This document shows positions 6,430 through 44,681 of a stretch of DNA of 52,267 nt, one piece after another. Location: NCBI GenBank assembly GCA_014193395.1, contig BJHT01000011.1, positions 1 through 52,267 on the forward strand, given 5' to 3'. Source of the stretch: Verrucomicrobiota bacterium (GTDB lineage Bacteria > Verrucomicrobiota > Verrucomicrobiia > Limisphaerales > BJHT01). The notes under the pieces were generated by a model that searched no databases, was not told the DNA's origin, and saw nothing but the letters and a program-made list of their open reading frames with translations. A program made the position numbers and the translations under genes. Positions within the stretch are counted from its first letter, which is position 1. Each line of letters starts with the position of its first letter.

Positions 6430-9078
6430 TCACGGTGTCTTGAGTCGGAAGAAGCGCGGGCCACCGGTGGCGTCCAGCGTGAGCGAGTGGTACACGACGG
6501 CATTGTTCGTCACGAGAACGGGCGGGGGATTCACGTCGAGCCACGCGGGCGCGGTGCCGAGGTTGGTCGTGGATTGCAGGAGGAGGGTCACGGGCGCGAG
6601 GACGCGGGGCCAGGTGATTTCAACGTTCGCAGAGTCCGGCAGGAGGCGCGCGGAAAGTGTGCGCTGGGCGGTGCTCATGACGGCGATGAGCGATTGCGAA
6701 AGATTGTCGGCGGGGCGTGTGTCGCCTTCGAGCGCAGAGACGCTGACTTGATGAAACGCCACGCCGGCGGGGGTGTTGAAGACGGTGAGGGTGATGGTCG
6801 CGGTGGCGGCGTTGGAGAACACGCCGAGCGTGCAGGTTAATCTTCCGTTGCTGAACGAGTAGGCACCGACGCTCGACGTCGCGGAGACAAACTGCATTCC
6901 TGCGGGCAGCGTGTCCTGCACGGTGACGCCGGTGACGGTCGAGGGACCGCGATTGGTGACGGTGATGAAAAACGTCGCGGGCTGGTTTTGCAGGAAGACG
7001 GGGGGCGCGTTGGAGGTGGTGATGACGAGGTCGCTCGGGCGCGTGACGAGGAAGGTCGCGGTGCTGGTCGTGGTGCCGTCGGCGTTGGCCACCTGGAGGG
7101 TTCCGGTGGTTGCTCCGGCGGGGACGGTCGCGGTGAGCTGGGTGGGGGAATTGATCGTGAACGCGGCGGCGGTGCCGTTGAAGCGCACGGCGGTGGCGCT
7201 GGAAAAATTCTGCCCTTGCAGCACGACAGCCGTGCCCGCCGGTCCCAACGTAGGCGCGAAATTATCCAGTCGCGGCAGCACGGTGAACGCACCCGCGCTG
7301 TAGATGACGCCGCCGGGCGTGGTCAGCACGAGCGGACCGGTCACGGCATTGGTCGGGACCGTCGCGGCGAGCTGGCTCGCAGAGTTGACGGTGAACGGCG
7401 CGGCGATGCGCGTGCCGTTGGTGCTGGTGAAAGTCAGCGAAGTCGCGGCCGTGAAATTGGTGCCGGTGATGGTGAAGACCGTGCCGGCCACGCCGCTGGC
7501 GGGGGAGAAAGTGGTTAGCCGCGGCGGCGCAAAAAACGTCGCGCCGCTCGTGCCCGTGCCGGCTGGCGACGTGATGCTGATCGGCCCGGTGAGCGCCCCC
7601 GGCGGCACGTCCACGCGGAGTTGCGAATCCGCCGTGACGGCGGCTCCGGTGGCCGGCACGCCGTTGAAGAGCACGCCGGTGGCGATGGTGAAATTGATGC
7701 CGGTGATCGTGACCGACGTGCCGCGCGGGCCGCTGCCGGGTGTGAACCCGAGGATGAACGGCGCGGCTCCGGTGACGAAAAAATTGCCCGTCGTGGTCGT
7801 GCTGCCGGCCGTGGTGGTCACGCTGAGCGGGCCGGTGGTCGCGCCGTTGGGAACATGCGCGACGATCTGTCCCGGGGCCGTGGCCACGGCGCTTGCATCG
7901 GTGACGCCGTTGAATTTAACCACCAGTCCGCCCGCCGCCAGATTCAGGCCGCTGATCAAAATGGGAGTGCCCGCCGCCCCTGCTACGGGCGCGAAGCTCG
8001 TGATCAACGGTCCGGCGCCCGTGATGAAATTGGTGACGCTCGTGCCGGTGCCCGCGGCGGTCGTGACGGAGATGGGGCCGGTGGTTGCGCCGGCAGGAAC
8101 GAAGGCCTGGATGGAGTTTGCCGCCAACGCGGAGTACGCGGCGGTGACGCCGTTGAATTTCACCACCGTCGTGCCGCCGAGAAAATTGAGGCCGTGGATC
8201 ACCACCGCGTCGCCGACCGCTCCGAGCGTGGGGAAAAAGTCGGTGACGATGGGCTTGGTGCCGGTGACAAAGTTCTGCGCGTTCGTGGCGGTGCCGCCAC
8301 TGGTGGTGACGGTCAGCGGGCCGGTGGTGGCGTTCGCCGGAACGACGACGCTCAACTGCGTCCCCTGCCCGGTGAGCGTGACACTCGTGGCCGCGACGCC
8401 GTTGAACCGCACGGTGAGCGCGCCGGAAAAATTTGCGCCGTAAATCGTGACGATGTTCCCCGGTGCGGCGGCCAGCGGCACCACGTCGGTGATGACCGGC
8501 TGCGACGACGCGAGAAAATTCGCGACGCTGTCCACGCTGCCAACCGTGGTCACGACGGTGATCGGGCCGTCCGTCGCGCCGGTCGGGACGGTGGCGAGAA
8601 TTTGTTTTTCCGCGGTGACGCTGAATGTCGCCGCCGTGCCATTGAAACGGACGGCGGTGGCGTTGGTGAAGTTGGCGCCCGCGATGACGACGGGCGTTCC
8701 GGGCGCGCCCAGCGGCGGCGAGAACGTATCGAGACGCGGGGGCACGGTGAAATTCGCGGTGCTGTTGCCAACGCCAGAGGCGTTGCTCGCGTAGAGACGG
8801 CCGGAGGTCGCCGTCACGGGCACGACGGCGAGCAGTTGGTTGACGCTCAGGGCGGTGAAATCGGCGAGCGCGTCGTTGAACCGCAACTGGGTCGTGGTGG
8901 AAAAGCCGCTGCCATTGATGGTGACAATCGTGCCCGGCGGGCCGCTGGCGGGCGTGAACGACGTGATGACCGGCACCTGCGCGACCGCGATTCCGAGGCA
9001 CGCGATCCAACTCAGCCAGAGGCCGCAACAGCGGCGCAGGTCGGTCAGCACCGAGGTCAGGGGATCGAGAATGCACAT
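6430..9078 (-). CDS. Exported multi-TIG surface protein with DUF11 domain
   Basis: An exported 882-residue protein. The ATG at 9078 (MCILDPL) precedes a hydrophobic segment ending near AVAQ (residue 34). Eight IPT/TIG immunoglobulin-like repeats of about 80 residues follow, each starting with a pattern such as PVITSFTPASGPPGT and a later GxxF. About residues 681-785 are a DUF11 domain (PVFLQNQPATFFITVTNRGPS). The last 80 residues match the FFRL-type C-terminus common in verrucomicrobial secreted proteins. A surface or adhesion role is inferred from the domains. The frame upstream to 9204 reads through a palindromic repeat and is not included. Confidence 0.85.
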   Translation of the reverse strand: MCILDPLTSVLTDLRRCCGLWLSWIACLGIAVAQVPVITSFTPASGPPGTIVTINGSGFSTTTQLRFNDALADFTALSVNQLLAVVPVTATSGRLYASNASGVGNSTANFTVPPRLDTFSPPLGAPGTPVVIAGANFTNATAVRFNGTAATFSVTAEKQILATVPTGATDGPITVVTTVGSVDSVANFLASSQPVITDVVPLAAAPGNIVTIYGANFSGALTVRFNGVAATSVTLTGQGTQLSVVVPANATTGPLTVTTSGGTATNAQNFVTGTKPIVTDFFPTLGAVGDAVVIHGLNFLGGTTVVKFNGVTAAYSALAANSIQAFVPAGATTGPISVTTAAGTGTSVTNFITGAGPLITSFAPVAGAAGTPILISGLNLAAGGLVVKFNGVTDASAVATAPGQIVAHVPNGATTGPLSVTTTAGSTTTTGNFFVTGAAPFILGFTPGSGPRGTSVTITGINFTIATGVLFNGVPATGAAVTADSQLRVDVPPGALTGPISITSPAGTGTSGATFFAPPRLTTFSPASGVAGTVFTITGTNFTAATSLTFTSTNGTRIAAPFTVNSASQLAATVPTNAVTGPLVLTTPGGVIYSAGAFTVLPRLDNFAPTLGPAGTAVVLQGQNFSSATAVRFNGTAAAFTINSPTQLTATVPAGATTGTLQVANADGTTTSTATFLVTRPSDLVITTSNAPPVFLQNQPATFFITVTNRGPSTVTGVTVQDTLPAGMQFVSATSSVGAYSFSNGRLTCTLGVFSNAATATITLTVFNTPAGVAFHQVSVSALEGDTRPADNLSQSLIAVMSTAQRTLSARLLPDSANVEITWPRVLAPVTLLLQSTTNLGTAPAWLDVNPPPVLVTNNAVVYHSLTLDATGGPRFFRLKTP

Positions 9079-15042: not shown

Positions 15043-16377
15043 TCACTGCGGCACCAGCTTGAACACCTTCCCCGTCTCGCCTTCCAGACCGCGGCCGTCG
15101 TTGGTCATCACGTATAGTTCCCCGTCCGCGCTCTCGCCCAGCGCCACGATGCACTTGTTCAACTGCCCGTCCGGATGACTCGCCAGCGGCAGCAGCTCGA
15201 TCTTCCACGGCTTGTTCGAGCCCGTCTCGGGCCGCGTCGCCACATACACCGCGCCGTCCGACTTGGTCCACATCCGCGACCAGTCCGCGAACACATATTT
15301 GCCCGTCAGATGCGGGATCGCCTTGCCGCGATACACATAGCCGCCCGTGATGCACGTCCCGCCCGCGTCGGTGTCCTTCGGGAAACCCTTCGCGTTTTTG
15401 TAAACAATCGCCGGGTCCACAAACGGCCGGCCCTCGGCATCCTTTTCCGCCATCGTCTCCGGCTTCTTCAACGGCGCCTTCGGATCAAACCCCTCCATCC
15501 CCTCGCGCAGATTCCAGCCGTAATTGCCACCCTTCACGATGATGTTCACCTCCTCGAAGCGGCTCTGCCCGACGTCCGCGACAAACAGCTCGCGCGTCCC
15601 GCCGCGATCAAACGACAGCCCCCACGGATTGCGCAGCCCGAACGCATAAATCTCCGGCTTCGCCTTGCTGTTCCCGACAAACGGATTGTCCTTCGGCACG
15701 CTGTACGGATTCCCCGAGTCCACGTCGATGCGCAGGACTTTTCCGAGATGCGTCGTCAGGTCCTGCCCGTTGCCCTGCGGCGGATGACCGAGGCCCACGT
15801 CGCTGCCATTGCCGCCGTCGCCCACGCCGAAATAAAGGAACCCATCCGGTCCGAACGCCATCCGCCCCGAGTTGTGATTCGCCTGCGGCTCGTCGATCTG
15901 CAGCAGCAGTTTTTCGTACGCCGGATCGGCCTGCGAACGGTCGTTCGGCAGCGTGCGAAACTCCGACAAATGGCTCGTGTGATCCCACTTCTCCGGCCCG
16001 CCCGCCCGCAGGGGCGCGCTGTAGTAAATGTAGAACTTCCCGTTGTCGTTGAACTTGGGGTGCAGCGCGATGCCCAGCAGCCCGCGCTCATCAAACCCGT
16101 TTTTCAGTTTCGTGACCTTCGGCCGCAGATCGAGAAACACCTTCGCCGGCCCATCCTTCGACAGCAGCTTGATCACACCGATCTGATCCCCGACCAGCAC
16201 TCGCCCCGAGCCATCCTCGAACGGAATCAAATTGATCGGTGAAACATACCCTTCGGCCACCAGCCGCAGGCCCACCGGCTTGGGTGTCTGCGCGGACACC
16301 GACGCCACGTTGAAGAAAAAAACGGCGGCCACAGCCAGGCCGACGCGAACGAAGTTGCAGAGCGAAAGAGGAATCAT
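15043..16377 (-). CDS. PQQ-dependent sugar dehydrogenase (glucose/sorbosone dehydrogenase family)
   Basis: A secreted beta-propeller enzyme of 444 residues, predicted to oxidise a sugar or aldose in the periplasm with PQQ as cofactor. A signal peptide ends near SVSAQ (residue 30). The propeller contains family motifs: DERGLLGIALHPKF, the catalytic-His region EPQANHNSGRMAFGPDGFLYFGVGDGG, the Arg motif YAFGLRNPWGLSFD, and ITGGYVYRG near the end. No PQQ synthesis genes are in the window. Some homologues act on other sugars or are enzymatically uncharacterised, so the substrate is open. Confidence 0.88.
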   Translation of the reverse strand: MIPLSLCNFVRVGLAVAAVFFFNVASVSAQTPKPVGLRLVAEGYVSPINLIPFEDGSGRVLVGDQIGVIKLLSKDGPAKVFLDLRPKVTKLKNGFDERGLLGIALHPKFNDNGKFYIYYSAPLRAGGPEKWDHTSHLSEFRTLPNDRSQADPAYEKLLLQIDEPQANHNSGRMAFGPDGFLYFGVGDGGNGSDVGLGHPPQGNGQDLTTHLGKVLRIDVDSGNPYSVPKDNPFVGNSKAKPEIYAFGLRNPWGLSFDRGGTRELFVADVGQSRFEEVNIIVKGGNYGWNLREGMEGFDPKAPLKKPETMAEKDAEGRPFVDPAIVYKNAKGFPKDTDAGGTCITGGYVYRGKAIPHLTGKYVFADWSRMWTKSDGAVYVATRPETGSNKPWKIELLPLASHPDGQLNKCIVALGESADGELYVMTNDGRGLEGETGKVFKLVPQ

Positions 16378-16557
16378 GCCCGCAGACTAGCAACCGCCCC
16401 CACCGACACAAGACCGCTCCGCGAAAATGTCACGCCCTGCGCGCGACGCTTCCTCCGCTCGCATTCCCCGGCCCAACTCTGCCGCACTCACGAACCACTG
16501 CGCCCGGCCCTCCACGCTGGGCGTCTGCCGTGCAAGTGTCGGGCATCTCCCACGGCT

Positions 16558-16669
16558 CCTTCCCGCTCTGCGTTCCTTCCGATCTCTGCGGTGTTTTCGG
16601 GAAACGCTCCGACCGGGGTGGCGGGGAATGGAACACCGCAGAGATCGGAAGGAACGCAGAGCGGGAAGG
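16558..16669. repeat. Perfect 38-bp inverted repeat
   Basis: Arms 16558-16595 and 16632-16669 are exact inverted copies over 38 bases (CCTTCCCGCTCTGCG opens the left arm; CGCAGAGCGGGAAGG closes the right). They surround a 36-base loop. It lies in the 452-bp gap between the PQQ enzyme and TauE genes, which holds no other recognised feature. Confidence 0.95.
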
Positions 16670-16829
16670 GGGCGGAAGCGCGCGCCGCGTTGCTCACGAC
16701 GGAGGCGGTCGGAGTTTTGTACCCGCCCTCGCCGCTCCCCGCGTTTTGCGTTGGTTGCGGCCCCGCCGCCCTGAGTTCATCGTCTCTCTCTCCGGTCCAA
16801 AAGCATCGGCTCGACTGCGGCGTTCGCGC

Positions 16830-17630
16830 TCACCGCAGCAGTTTCACGAGCTGCGAGTGGAAGATCAGCTCGATCCCGGTGAGGAATGTCAGCACGTACA
16901 CGAACCGCAGGAACAGGCGCTCGGAGAACCGGCGGTTGAGCCACACGCCGAGCCAGACGCCCACGGGCACAAGCGGAAAAAACAGCAGGCTAAGCCACAG
17001 CGTTTCGCGGGTGATGATCGCGTGCGGCACCAGCACGGAGAGGTTCGTCAGCTCGCGGTCGAGCAGGAAGAACGGCATCTTGATCCAGTTGATGCAGGTG
17101 AACATCAGCACGGTCGTTCCCACGTAGATTTCCTTGGGCAGTTTCTGCGGCATCACAAACACTGCGACGACCGGCCCGGCCCCGTGCGCAAATGTCGAGG
17201 TGATGCCCGCGCCGATGCCACACGGAATGCCGATCGCATGGCTGGGAGAAAACGCGCCCTCCGCCTGGAAGATTTTCTCCTTCACGAGCTGGAACACGAC
17301 GAACAACACCGCCAGCACGCCGATGCAGACCTGAAGCTGCTGCGGCGAGAACCGGCCGATGAGCTGCACGCCGATCACCACGCCGATCACCACGCCGGGC
17401 AACAGATACACGAGGTTCTTTTTCTCCCATTTGCCCCAGTAGTGATAGAGCGAGAAGGCGTCGCCGGCGCACAGCAGCGGGAGCAGGATGCCGATGGCGT
17501 CCTTCGGTCCGAACGCGAACACGCACAGCGGCGTGGTCAACATGCCCAGCCCGCCGCCGAACCCGGCCTTCGAGAGACCGATGAACGTCACCGCAATCGC
17601 CGCCACGAGAATGTTGGTCCAGTCGGACAT
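16830..17630 (-). CDS. TauE/SafE-family membrane permease
   Basis: A 266-residue integral membrane protein with about eight hydrophobic segments, of the family that exports sulfite or other organosulfur anions. Hallmarks are FIGLSKAGFGGGLGMLTTP near the N-terminus and GAGITSTFAHGAGPVVAVFVMPQ in the middle. The ATG at 17630 (MSDWTN) is chosen because codons upstream run through the GGCGAAT repeat and a palindrome. No sulfur-metabolism gene is adjacent, so the substrate is unknown. Confidence 0.88.
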   Translation of the reverse strand: MSDWTNILVAAIAVTFIGLSKAGFGGGLGMLTTPLCVFAFGPKDAIGILLPLLCAGDAFSLYHYWGKWEKKNLVYLLPGVVIGVVIGVQLIGRFSPQQLQVCIGVLAVLFVVFQLVKEKIFQAEGAFSPSHAIGIPCGIGAGITSTFAHGAGPVVAVFVMPQKLPKEIYVGTTVLMFTCINWIKMPFFLLDRELTNLSVLVPHAIITRETLWLSLLFFPLVPVGVWLGVWLNRRFSERLFLRFVYVLTFLTGIELIFHSQLVKLLR

Positions 17631-20170: not shown

Positions 20171-20447
20171 CGTCCCGGAGGGACTCCGCAGGATATTAGC
20201 CGGGGGCAAGCCCGCGCAGCGGGCGCGGCCCCCGGTTCCGCCGCCAAACGGGTCATGCCCCAGCGGGGCATCGCAGAAGTTTTTGGGCGGTGTCCTTCCC
20301 GCAGCATTGCCGCCACCCCTCGTCGCTTCCGGCCATTTTCTTCGATGCCCCGCTGGGGCACGGAGCCACGGGGCGGGGTTTCCGGGGGCGGCGTCCGCTG
20401 GGGCGGACTTGCCCCCGGCTAATCTCCTCCGGCGTCCCTCCGGGACG
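20171..20447. repeat. Nested 277-bp palindromic element
   Basis: Outer arms of 45 bases (CGTCCCGGAGGGAC... at 20171-20215 and its inverse ending at 20447) differ at about five positions. Inside, GCCCCAGCGGGGCATCG (about 20257) and CGATGCCCCGCTGGGGC (about 20343) form a second inverted pair. It occupies the middle of the 767-bp gap between the exported protein gene and pyrD, which otherwise shows no gene. Confidence 0.85.
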
Positions 20448-21682: not shown

Positions 21683-21768
21683 GCGCGTGAGTTAGCCACG
21701 GATGAAACGGGGAGGGAACAGGGATTTTTGCAGTGCGCGTTGCGTGGTGGGAAAGCGCGCGCGGGGCG

Positions 21769-21962
21769 AAGCTCCAAGAACAAAGCTCAAAGCTCAAGGG
21801 AAGCATCAAGCTCCAGTTTCAGCGTGTCGCCGTTGGGCTTTTGGAGCGTGGATCGGTTTGGATTCCCAGTAACGGGTGAGCAAAAAAAACCTGTCGGCCA
21901 GCGTGCGCTGGAGCTTGGGTCTTGGACCTTCCCTTGAGCTTTGAGCTTTGTCCTTGGAGCTT
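21769..21962. repeat. Paired AAGCTCA heptamer element, copy 1
   Basis: Left arm (21769-21814) is made of AAGCTCC/AAAGCTCA-type 7-mers; right arm (21909-21962) is their inverse (TTGAGCTTTGAGCTTTG). They enclose about 95 unique bases. Other copies are at 30720-30915 and 44291-44465. Confidence 0.85.
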
Positions 21963-22011
21963 TTTTCCCCGCGTCGATCTGTGGTGGCGTCGGCGGTTTT
22001 CGAAGGAAAAT

Positions 22012-30633: not shown

Positions 30634-30719
30634 CGCAGCAGCGGTTAAAGAGCGGCGACGCTAACAGGGGGAAGCGGGTTATCAAGGTTTCGGTGCGCGG
30701 CGACGGGAGAGCGGGAGCG

Positions 30720-30915
30720 AAGTTCCAAGTTCAAAGCTCAAAGCTCCAGGGAAACACCAAGCTCCAGGGCCAAGCTCCAACCAAGCTTCACAAAACACGT
30801 CTGGTGCGGTGGTCCTTCGCGATCCACCGCATCATTCACCCCCTCGTCCCGGCCGTCTTGGCCCTTGAACCCTCTTGGTCCTTCCCTTGAGCTTTGAGCT
30901 TTGTCCTTGGAGCTT
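30720..30915. repeat. Paired AAGCTCA heptamer element, copy 2
   Basis: Left arm 30720-30788 has units AAGTTCC, AAGTTCA, AAGCTCA, AAGCTCC. Right arm 30856-30915 is the inverse. It fills the 357-bp gap between the divergent ileS and mpl genes, so promoters for both must sit in or around it. Confidence 0.87.
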
Positions 30916-30990
30916 CCACTTCGCCCCCTTCGTTCTGCCGGTCCGGCAATCCATCCTTCTCTCCTGCGCTGATTGTTTCATCATCCGCCG

Positions 30991-33032: not shown

Positions 33033-33389
33033 GATGTGAGGGTTTGGTGGTTTGCTGCGCCAGGCCATGATCCCGCTCGGCGGGCACGGCGACTGGCTGT
33101 TGGTTCGGCGCGGAGAATAGGCTCGCCGGAATCGAAGACAAGCCTGCCGTCGGCGGCGTGCGGCGCGCGTGCGCTTCCCAGTTTTCCGCACCGATCGGGG
33201 CGCGTTGGCGCAGTCCCGCATGGACGACCGAAAATTGCCCAGCACTTCAGTGCTGGGCTGGGGACGGGAACCAGAGGGGCTGCCAGCAACTGCGATGCGC
33301 CCCTGATTCGCCGCTTGGAATTTAGGCTGCCCTCACCCCTCGCGCCGCGTATTCTCGCCTCGTCCGAAACTCACACCAACAACCCGCGC
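33033..33389. other. Gap between divergent genes
   Basis: 357 bases between the barrel protein and the next membrane protein. Apart from the small hairpin at 33238-33257, no repeat, RNA or terminator was recognised; it must hold two promoters. Confidence 0.5.
33238..33257. other. Small perfect hairpin
   Basis: CCCAGCAC, loop TTCA, GTGCTGGG, in the gap upstream of two divergent genes. An operator or hairpin is possible; no protein is implicated. Confidence 0.5.
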
Positions 33390-44290: not shown

Positions 44291-44465
44291 AAAGCTCAAA
44301 GCTCAAAGTTCAAAGCTCAAGGGAAGCCGCCAAGCATCAAGCCTCCAATTGGAGCCTCGCGAGATTCGCTGCGTGACGGGCATGAAAACCGAGGTCGCTG
44401 GCCGCTGCACATGGAGCTTGGTATCTGGAGCTTTCTTTGAGCTTTAGGCTTTGAACTTTGAGCTT
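44291..44465. repeat. Paired AAGCTCA heptamer element, copy 3
   Basis: Left arm 44291-44347 (AAGCTCA, AAGCTCA, AAGTTCA, AAGCTCA) and right arm 44412-44465 (TGAGCTT, TAGGCTT, TGAACTT, TGAGCTT). It ends directly at the stop codon of the small gene at 44466. Confidence 0.87.
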
Positions 44466-44681
44466 TCACAACCCGCGCTCCTTCGCCGCCCAGCCCTGGC
44501 GCAGCAATCCGAGCAGATGCGCAAGCGCCTGCTCGTAGGTACGGCCTTTCAACGCGCTCAACTGCCGCGCCCGTTTGTCGAGCTGGGCGGCCATCTCCGG
44601 TGCCTTCTCCGCCGGACAGCCGAGCGCGATGAGCACGGGCGCAAGCTGGGCGGGTGCGAGAGCGGTTTGGGCGGGGTCCAT
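44466..44681 (-). CDS. Small hypothetical protein
   Basis: 71 residues from the ATG at 44681 (MDPAQTAL), mostly helical and Ala/Leu-rich (QLAPVLIALGCPAEKAPEMAAQLDKRARQL). No family is recognised. The ATG lies directly beside the T-tract of the cyclophilin terminator, and no ribosome binding site is visible. A real but unnamed gene is possible; a spurious ORF cannot be excluded. Confidence 0.5.
   Translation of the reverse strand: MDPAQTALAPAQLAPVLIALGCPAEKAPEMAAQLDKRARQLSALKGRTYEQALAHLLGLLRQGWAAKERGL

Follow-up and report, generated by a model that had tools for sequence, protein, structure and literature searches.

The window analysed here is the whole stretch of 52,267 nucleotides from contig BJHT01000011.1 of a Verrucomicrobiota bacterium. 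A codon-model gene call places 37 genes in it, with 86.5% of the sequence coding and 13.5% non-coding. Two neighbouring minus-strand genes, one of the glucose/sorbosone dehydrogenase family (PF07995, positions 15043–16377) and one of the TauE/SafE family (PF01925, 16830–17843), are separated by 452 bp, close to the 450 bp given in a sequence-only reading of this DNA. The gap harbors the perfect inverted repeat on which that reading commented. Its left arm (16558–16595, 38 nt) and right arm (16632–16669, 38 nt), both given on the plus strand, are complementary at all 38 positions and flank a loop of 36 nt (16596–16631, plus strand). At 95% complementarity the arm pair extends to 43 nt (16553–16595 and 16632–16674). 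Comparison within the family described below defines a 28-nt core arm, CTCTGCG-N11-CTCTGCGGTG, which is common to the different loop families and lies at 16566–16593 on the plus strand, with its second copy at 16634–16661 on the minus strand. By this core definition the loop measures 40 nt (16594–16633). The hairpin is enclosed by a longer repeat of about 327 bp, termed S1, to which copies from other loci align over 16463–16789; it comprises a B flank (16463–16557) and an A flank (16670–16789), both on the plus strand. The loop of the window copy belongs to the S1 family and stands in the minority orientation relative to these outer flanks.

The earlier expectation of an extremely stable RNA stem agrees with the predicted folding, in which a 151-nt stretch reaches −109.6 kcal/mol (z −9.5) and none of 200 shuffles folds as well. 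As DNA, the 96-nt core of the hairpin is predicted at −42.9 kcal/mol (z −11.0). Twelve other inverted pairs with arms of at least 18 nt within 400 bases of each other were counted in the window. They are 80–100% complementary, in line with the statement that most other elements here have diverged, and the sole other pair with 100% complementarity has arms of only 19 nt.

The window inverted repeat is one copy of a dispersed, hairpin-forming repeat family. A 122-base query returned at least 84 matches in its own genome (G000; hits on both strands included, 40 candidates out of 125 scored), and it also matches the sister genome G001, another genome of the same genus. A covariance model built from 40 copies found at least 149 matches in G000 and at least 65 in G001, again on both strands together and after scoring, per genome, 150 candidates out of about 4,700. 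Searching the own genome for the arm pattern with up to two mismatches gave 90 forward and 87 reverse matches, 177 altogether, against none on either strand for the control pattern. For the exact inner arm pair, G000 gave 56 occurrences and G001 gave 15, compared with none for the control.

The arms are nearly always paired. Among 200 distinct arms read (up to four substitutions), 197 have an inverted partner (up to six edits) within 130 bases, compared with 3 of 200 false partners in shuffled segments; this is not a random sample, as most loci were fetched for paired hits. The three unpaired arms are found in L157 (position 699), L177 (2074, minus strand) and L192 (424). Six arms that seemed single have partners starting 79–86 bases away, and their hairpins are not among the 93 distinct hairpins read for the comparisons below (76 in G000 and 17 in G001). 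The reading of these 93 required no more than six substitutions per arm, which missed for example L154, L155, L163 and L169, and one duplicate was removed.

All 93 hairpins carry an arm close to CTCTGCGTYYCTTCCNATCTCTGCGGTG, composed of two CTCTGCG heptads and a more variable middle. Their loops measure 38–61 nt and form families that bear no visible similarity to each other. The S1 family is represented by 48 copies with a loop of about 40 nt, of which some, including L099 and L100, are assigned only loosely. In most cases S1 hairpins have the repeat blocks A and B on either side, and some hairpins form tandem arrays that include their flanks. By the codon-model gene call, 92 of the 93 hairpins lie between genes, and the exception is found in the array of L087. 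At that locus (6560–7070) a tandem duplication takes in the hairpin and a coding gene's 3′ end, with the gene end preceding each of two hairpins.

The recurrence of the hairpin also bears on whether it is a fold-back artefact of sequencing or assembly, the outcome that the sequence-only reading had named as its refutation. For the hairpin itself, though not for the orientation of its loop, such an artefact can be excluded, because dozens of places in its own genome carry it and it is also present in a separately assembled sister genome, in some cases at orthologous positions.

In the sister genome, the orthologs of the two genes that flank the window hairpin are 91% and 93% identical and are located on different contigs. 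No hairpin is found within 1.5 kb of either ortholog. The comparison with a sister strain, which had been suggested as a check, thus reveals a presence/absence difference at the window hairpin together with a break of synteny. At the place of L013, both neighbour genes match in G001, with other sequence in place of the hairpin. Among the loci fetched in both genomes, six places carry the hairpin in both (L047/L025, L049/L014, L160/L086, L161/L150, L162/L088 and L163/L154). Tandem unit numbers differ at two of them, with 1 versus 3 units at L160/L086 and 1 versus at least 2 at L162/L088. The shared orthologous hairpins, together with the differences in presence and unit number, indicate that the family is old and at the same time subject to turnover. 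Neither of the two places tried in the sister genome, L013 and L018, yielded a clean empty site, and at L018 only one side matched a unique G001 contig. Two G001 loci contain S1 flanks without the hairpin; part of the flank is missing as well and the junction is imprecise. A recent origin, one of two explanations offered earlier for the perfect arms, is not needed, because hairpins occupy orthologous places in two species whose neighbouring DNA is 84–93% identical and the window loop differs from the S1 consensus at 5 of 40 positions.

Arms and loops diverge at different rates. Across 43 S1 copies with a 40-nt loop, 3.1% of arm sites differ from the consensus versus 10.2% of loop sites; identifying hairpins through their arms biases this set toward conserved arms. 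Among five orthologous pairs, differences affect 19 of 280 positions in the arms and 49 of 216 in the loops (p = 4e-7, which serves only as a guide since the sites are linked). This count took five of the six shared hairpins, leaving out L163/L154 because its loops do not align; only the first of the three units of L086 was used, and the loop of L014 was reversed before comparison.

Moreover, the two arms of a hairpin resemble each other more closely than arms drawn at random. Over the 93 hairpins, the arms differ at 1.67 of 28 positions, versus 2.50 under random pairing (0 of 2000 shuffles as low). The same holds within the S1 family (1.38 versus 1.74 mismatches, 1 of 2000 shuffles) and outside it (1.98 versus 2.65, 0 of 2000). 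Identical changes are present in both arms of an S1 hairpin in 11 cases, compared with 3.0 under shuffling (a number as high was reached in 0 of 2000), and at L047/L025, an orthologous pair, the two arms share changes at two positions. Perfect 28-nt core arms are found in only 24 of the 93 hairpins. The other early explanation, active repair between the arms, gains support from the within-hairpin likeness, from the coupled changes and from the near-perfect arms of the flipped-loop copies described below, the last of which is possibly an assembly artefact.

The loop can stand in either orientation relative to its surroundings. With respect to the A and B flanks, 33 S1 copies have their loop one way and 8, including the window copy, the other way, with 7 of the 48 unclassable. 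Copies classed by both flanks divide 23 versus 3. At the orthologous place L049/L014, the two genomes carry opposite loop orientations; the orthology is anchored on one side only, because the own-genome contig ends at the L014 hairpin. A second loop family, with a loop of 57 nt, divides 12 versus 1, with 2 of 15 unclassable and with three of the 12 majority copies being units of one tandem array. Its single flipped copy has perfect arms.

Flipped S1 copies average 0.25 arm mismatches versus 1.61 in the remaining copies (p = 0.007 by permutation; 0.014 when L047 is excluded), a link that was sought after the data had been seen. Counted the other way, 6 of 16 classable S1 copies with perfect arms are flipped, versus 2 of 25 with imperfect arms (Fisher p = 0.04). 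The flipped loops themselves are not less diverged (4.6 versus 3.7 differences of 40). A flipped loop between near-perfect arms is the pattern that arm–arm exchange would be expected to leave, and the window copy would fit it. The link between flipped loops and perfect arms may also come from short-read assembly, as identical arms make the loop orientation ambiguous for short k-mers; the window copy, with its perfect arms, is not immune to this ambiguity. L014 and L050 are flipped and carry one arm mismatch each, so that both are largely immune to the ambiguity and the flip itself is hard to dismiss. On a tree built from the flanks, the eight flipped copies need 7 changes (bootstrap 6–7; shuffled mean 7.5), and thus they do not cluster. 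The flank tree is poorly resolved, with 6 of 38 inner branches starred and the starred branches forcing only one change, and given this weakness a single origin of the flip is possible.

We interpret the window inverted repeat as a copy of a gene-less hairpin repeat, interspersed throughout the genome, which works in the manner of a REPIN or a miniature inverted-repeat element and whose arms are homogenised by an arm–arm exchange that at times flips the loop. We put the probability of this reading at roughly two in three. It builds on the observed dispersion of the family, its intergenic placement, its conserved arms with dissimilar loops, its presence/absence differences between sister genomes and its tandem arrays. 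The exchange is demonstrated in part, by coupled arm changes, by loops in both orientations and by one case of opposite orientation at orthologous loci. As proposed, the unit would be a short loop, free in sequence, enclosed by two inverted copies of the roughly 28-nt conserved arm, and would have spread between genes as a hairpin, often together with its longer flanks, as in the S1 repeat at 16463–16789. Duplication of the longer unit would be an alternative route of spread, because many copies share flanks beyond the hairpin. Exchange between the arms, probably by gene conversion or by template switching through the hairpin, would equalise them and would at times invert the loop; the window copy, which combines the minority orientation with perfect arms, would be a product of such an event. 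Mobilisation would presumably be provided in trans by a transposase or by a replication-linked process.

Related hairpins are found beyond the genus. Among 194 further genomes sampled from the order, 14 match the covariance model at an E-value of 1e-4 or better. Ten of these loci were read. Five of them contain both heptads (groups f27 and f4), three are looser and two (L197 and L202) are not of this kind. The five with both heptads (L194, L195, L199, L200 and L201, one base off in L195 and L201) show mid-stem changes that compensate each other. At L199 (1354–1921), from another genus of the order, at least four hairpins with the CTCTGCG...CTCTGCGGTG arm architecture are arranged in tandem with a spacing of about 147 bases. 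A search for the exact arm-pair pattern in GTDB contigs, a set that may omit records of the own genome, gave 17 stretches, of which 14 come from the assembly of G001. The other three (a Neomarinimicrobiota bin, BMS3Bbin13 and Shimia) were set aside, as they look unrelated by eye. Viral contigs contain no stretch with the exact arm-pair pattern. A pattern search across the phylum matched 2 of 387 genomes and says little, because most of the family falls outside the spacer limit of 40 that was used. We found no relevant literature on pieces of the arm or on palindromic repeats of Verrucomicrobia among openly licensed PMC papers. A bolder version of our interpretation sees in these hairpins a RAYT-independent class of mobile hairpins, with arms of the form CTCTGCG-N10/11-CTCTGCGGTG, lineage-specific middles and at least three family groups in the order (f1, f4 and f27), in which the stem is renewed by loop-flipping arm exchange and the loop orientation records the exchanges. 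We advance this version tentatively and regard it as possible rather than probable.

The dispersal could also be secondary, with the hairpin being a passenger of longer intergenic repeats that are spread by ordinary recombination or segmental duplication. Most S1 copies do share the A flank, the B flank or both (41 of 48 are classable by their flanks), the tandem arrays duplicate flanks and in L087 even the 3′ end of a gene, and synteny is broken at the window copy. Against such passive spread, the arm is shared by hairpins whose loops and flanks are dissimilar, the S1 loop is found without S1 flanks in L013 and L018, and the arms are better conserved than the loops that lie between them. We therefore hold passive spread to be unlikely, if still the strongest of the competing accounts.

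The family might instead be a true REP/REPIN family that is mobilised by a RAYT-like Y1 transposase encoded in the genome. Passages of PMC3116915 (Bertels and Rainey 2011) describe REPINs as inverted REP doublets around a spacer, which are extragenic and form tandem clusters that include flanking sequence. The family resembles this description: a conserved short element occurs as an inverted doublet around a variable spacer, forms a hairpin, and is present in many extragenic copies, some of them in ordered tandem clusters with flanks. The own genome has eight Y1_Tnp matches. The last decamer of the arm, CTCTGCGGTG, is present exactly in the Y1 locus L107 (1268–1277), about 230 bases from the Y1 match and within the spacer of a different inverted pair, and it occurs with one mismatch in a further Y1 locus, L111.

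However, the full arm is absent, at up to seven substitutions, from all 17 Y1 transposase loci of the two draft genomes (8 own and 9 sister, with about 1.5 kb of flanks), and the five own Y1 loci inspected carry different inverted repeats. According to passages of PMC2817692, a pair of inverted cognate REPs carrying a GT(A/G)G head always flanks a RAYT gene. We accordingly did not assign the family to REP/REPIN: neither strand of the arm contains a GTAG or GTGG head, the arm has no palindrome of its own, and no RAYT flanked by the element was found among the 17 loci. In addition, the arm is longer than a REP and contains two CTCTGCG heptads, the predicted fold of a single arm is no more stable than that of shuffled sequences (z −0.7 and −0.5), few arms are single (3 of the 200 read), and loops occur in both orientations. 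Mobilisation by a cognate RAYT therefore seems to us rather improbable.

A different interspersed palindromic family occupies 20171–20447 of the window, including 20256–20360, with the sequences CGTCCCGGAGGGAC...GCCGGGGGCAAGCCCGC and TGCCCCAGCGGGGCA, and recurs in many loci. It resembles the inverted repeats around the Y1 transposase gene of L109, and it is possibly the real REP family of this genome.

Selection on a functional RNA or on a transcript-end hairpin could likewise maintain the stem. Across loci and between species the stem stays conserved as the loops drift, and changes are matched in both arms. Yet the hairpins show no preference for gene ends, so that their placement lends no support to the processed RNA suggested earlier. 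Of the 84 hairpins flanked by two genes, 57 have codirectional neighbours, 14 convergent and 13 divergent ones; the corresponding counts for the window's own gaps of at least 150 bases are 11, 3 and 5. No Rfam family reaches its threshold over 16300–16900, where matches below threshold are mainly to plant and animal microRNA hairpin models. We consider a selected RNA very unlikely. An intrinsic terminator was rejected: the window hairpin has no terminator-like site with a T tract after its stem, which together with the orientation counts argues against termination.

The interpretation as a mobile hairpin whose arms exchange also invites comparison with other small repeats. Bacterial MITEs are short non-coding elements with inverted terminal arms that occur in many copies. 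The hairpin family shares the terminal inverted repeats; unlike MITEs, it has no clear target-site duplication, no autonomous parent was found, and the internal sequences of its loop families are dissimilar. No clear target-site duplication was found among the 93 hairpins: a flush direct repeat of at least 3 bp is present at the hairpin ends in 1 of 93, flush 2-bp repeats in 9 versus 3.6 expected, and loosely placed repeats of 4–5 bp in 8 versus 3.8 (expectations from shuffled flanks). The true ends of the element are uncertain, because the flanks are shared. Furthermore, no gene-bearing long-range arm pair was seen among the matches listed (about 100 of 177) and the arms read.

The flipping of the loop has a parallel in plastids. 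The small inversions of chloroplast genomes, for which PMC12928735 and PMC5492656 cite Kim and Lee (2005), likewise combine an inverted-repeat stem with a loop that flips. Passages of the two citing papers describe stems of 8–24 bp inverted repeats and loops of up to about 50 bp, whose orientation changes between related genomes. The plastid inversions are single-locus features, whereas the hairpins described here form a dispersed bacterial family with a shared stem. Intrastrand triplex repeats (PMC4666352) were also considered for comparison.

Hairpin repeats shape bacterial genomes, and the reason why their arms stay paired can seldom be tested. This family offers many copies in two sister genomes, a measurable coupling between arms and loops in both orientations. 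If the flips are true, the family can be used to tell stem selection apart from a physical exchange between the arms. In addition, perfect inverted repeats in draft genomes may conceal an ambiguous loop orientation.

Two further features of the window were observed. Inverted repeats of AAAGCTCAAAGCTC-type units are located at 21758–21973, 30719–30916 and 44298–44466 and represent another intergenic family; a stretch of the same type is found in the sister genome at the place where the L013 hairpin is missing. At 33212–33257 on the minus strand, the Rfam family Acido-Lenti-1 (RF01687) matches over a CCCAGCACTGAAGTGCTGGG hairpin with 39.4 bits, above its threshold of 37.
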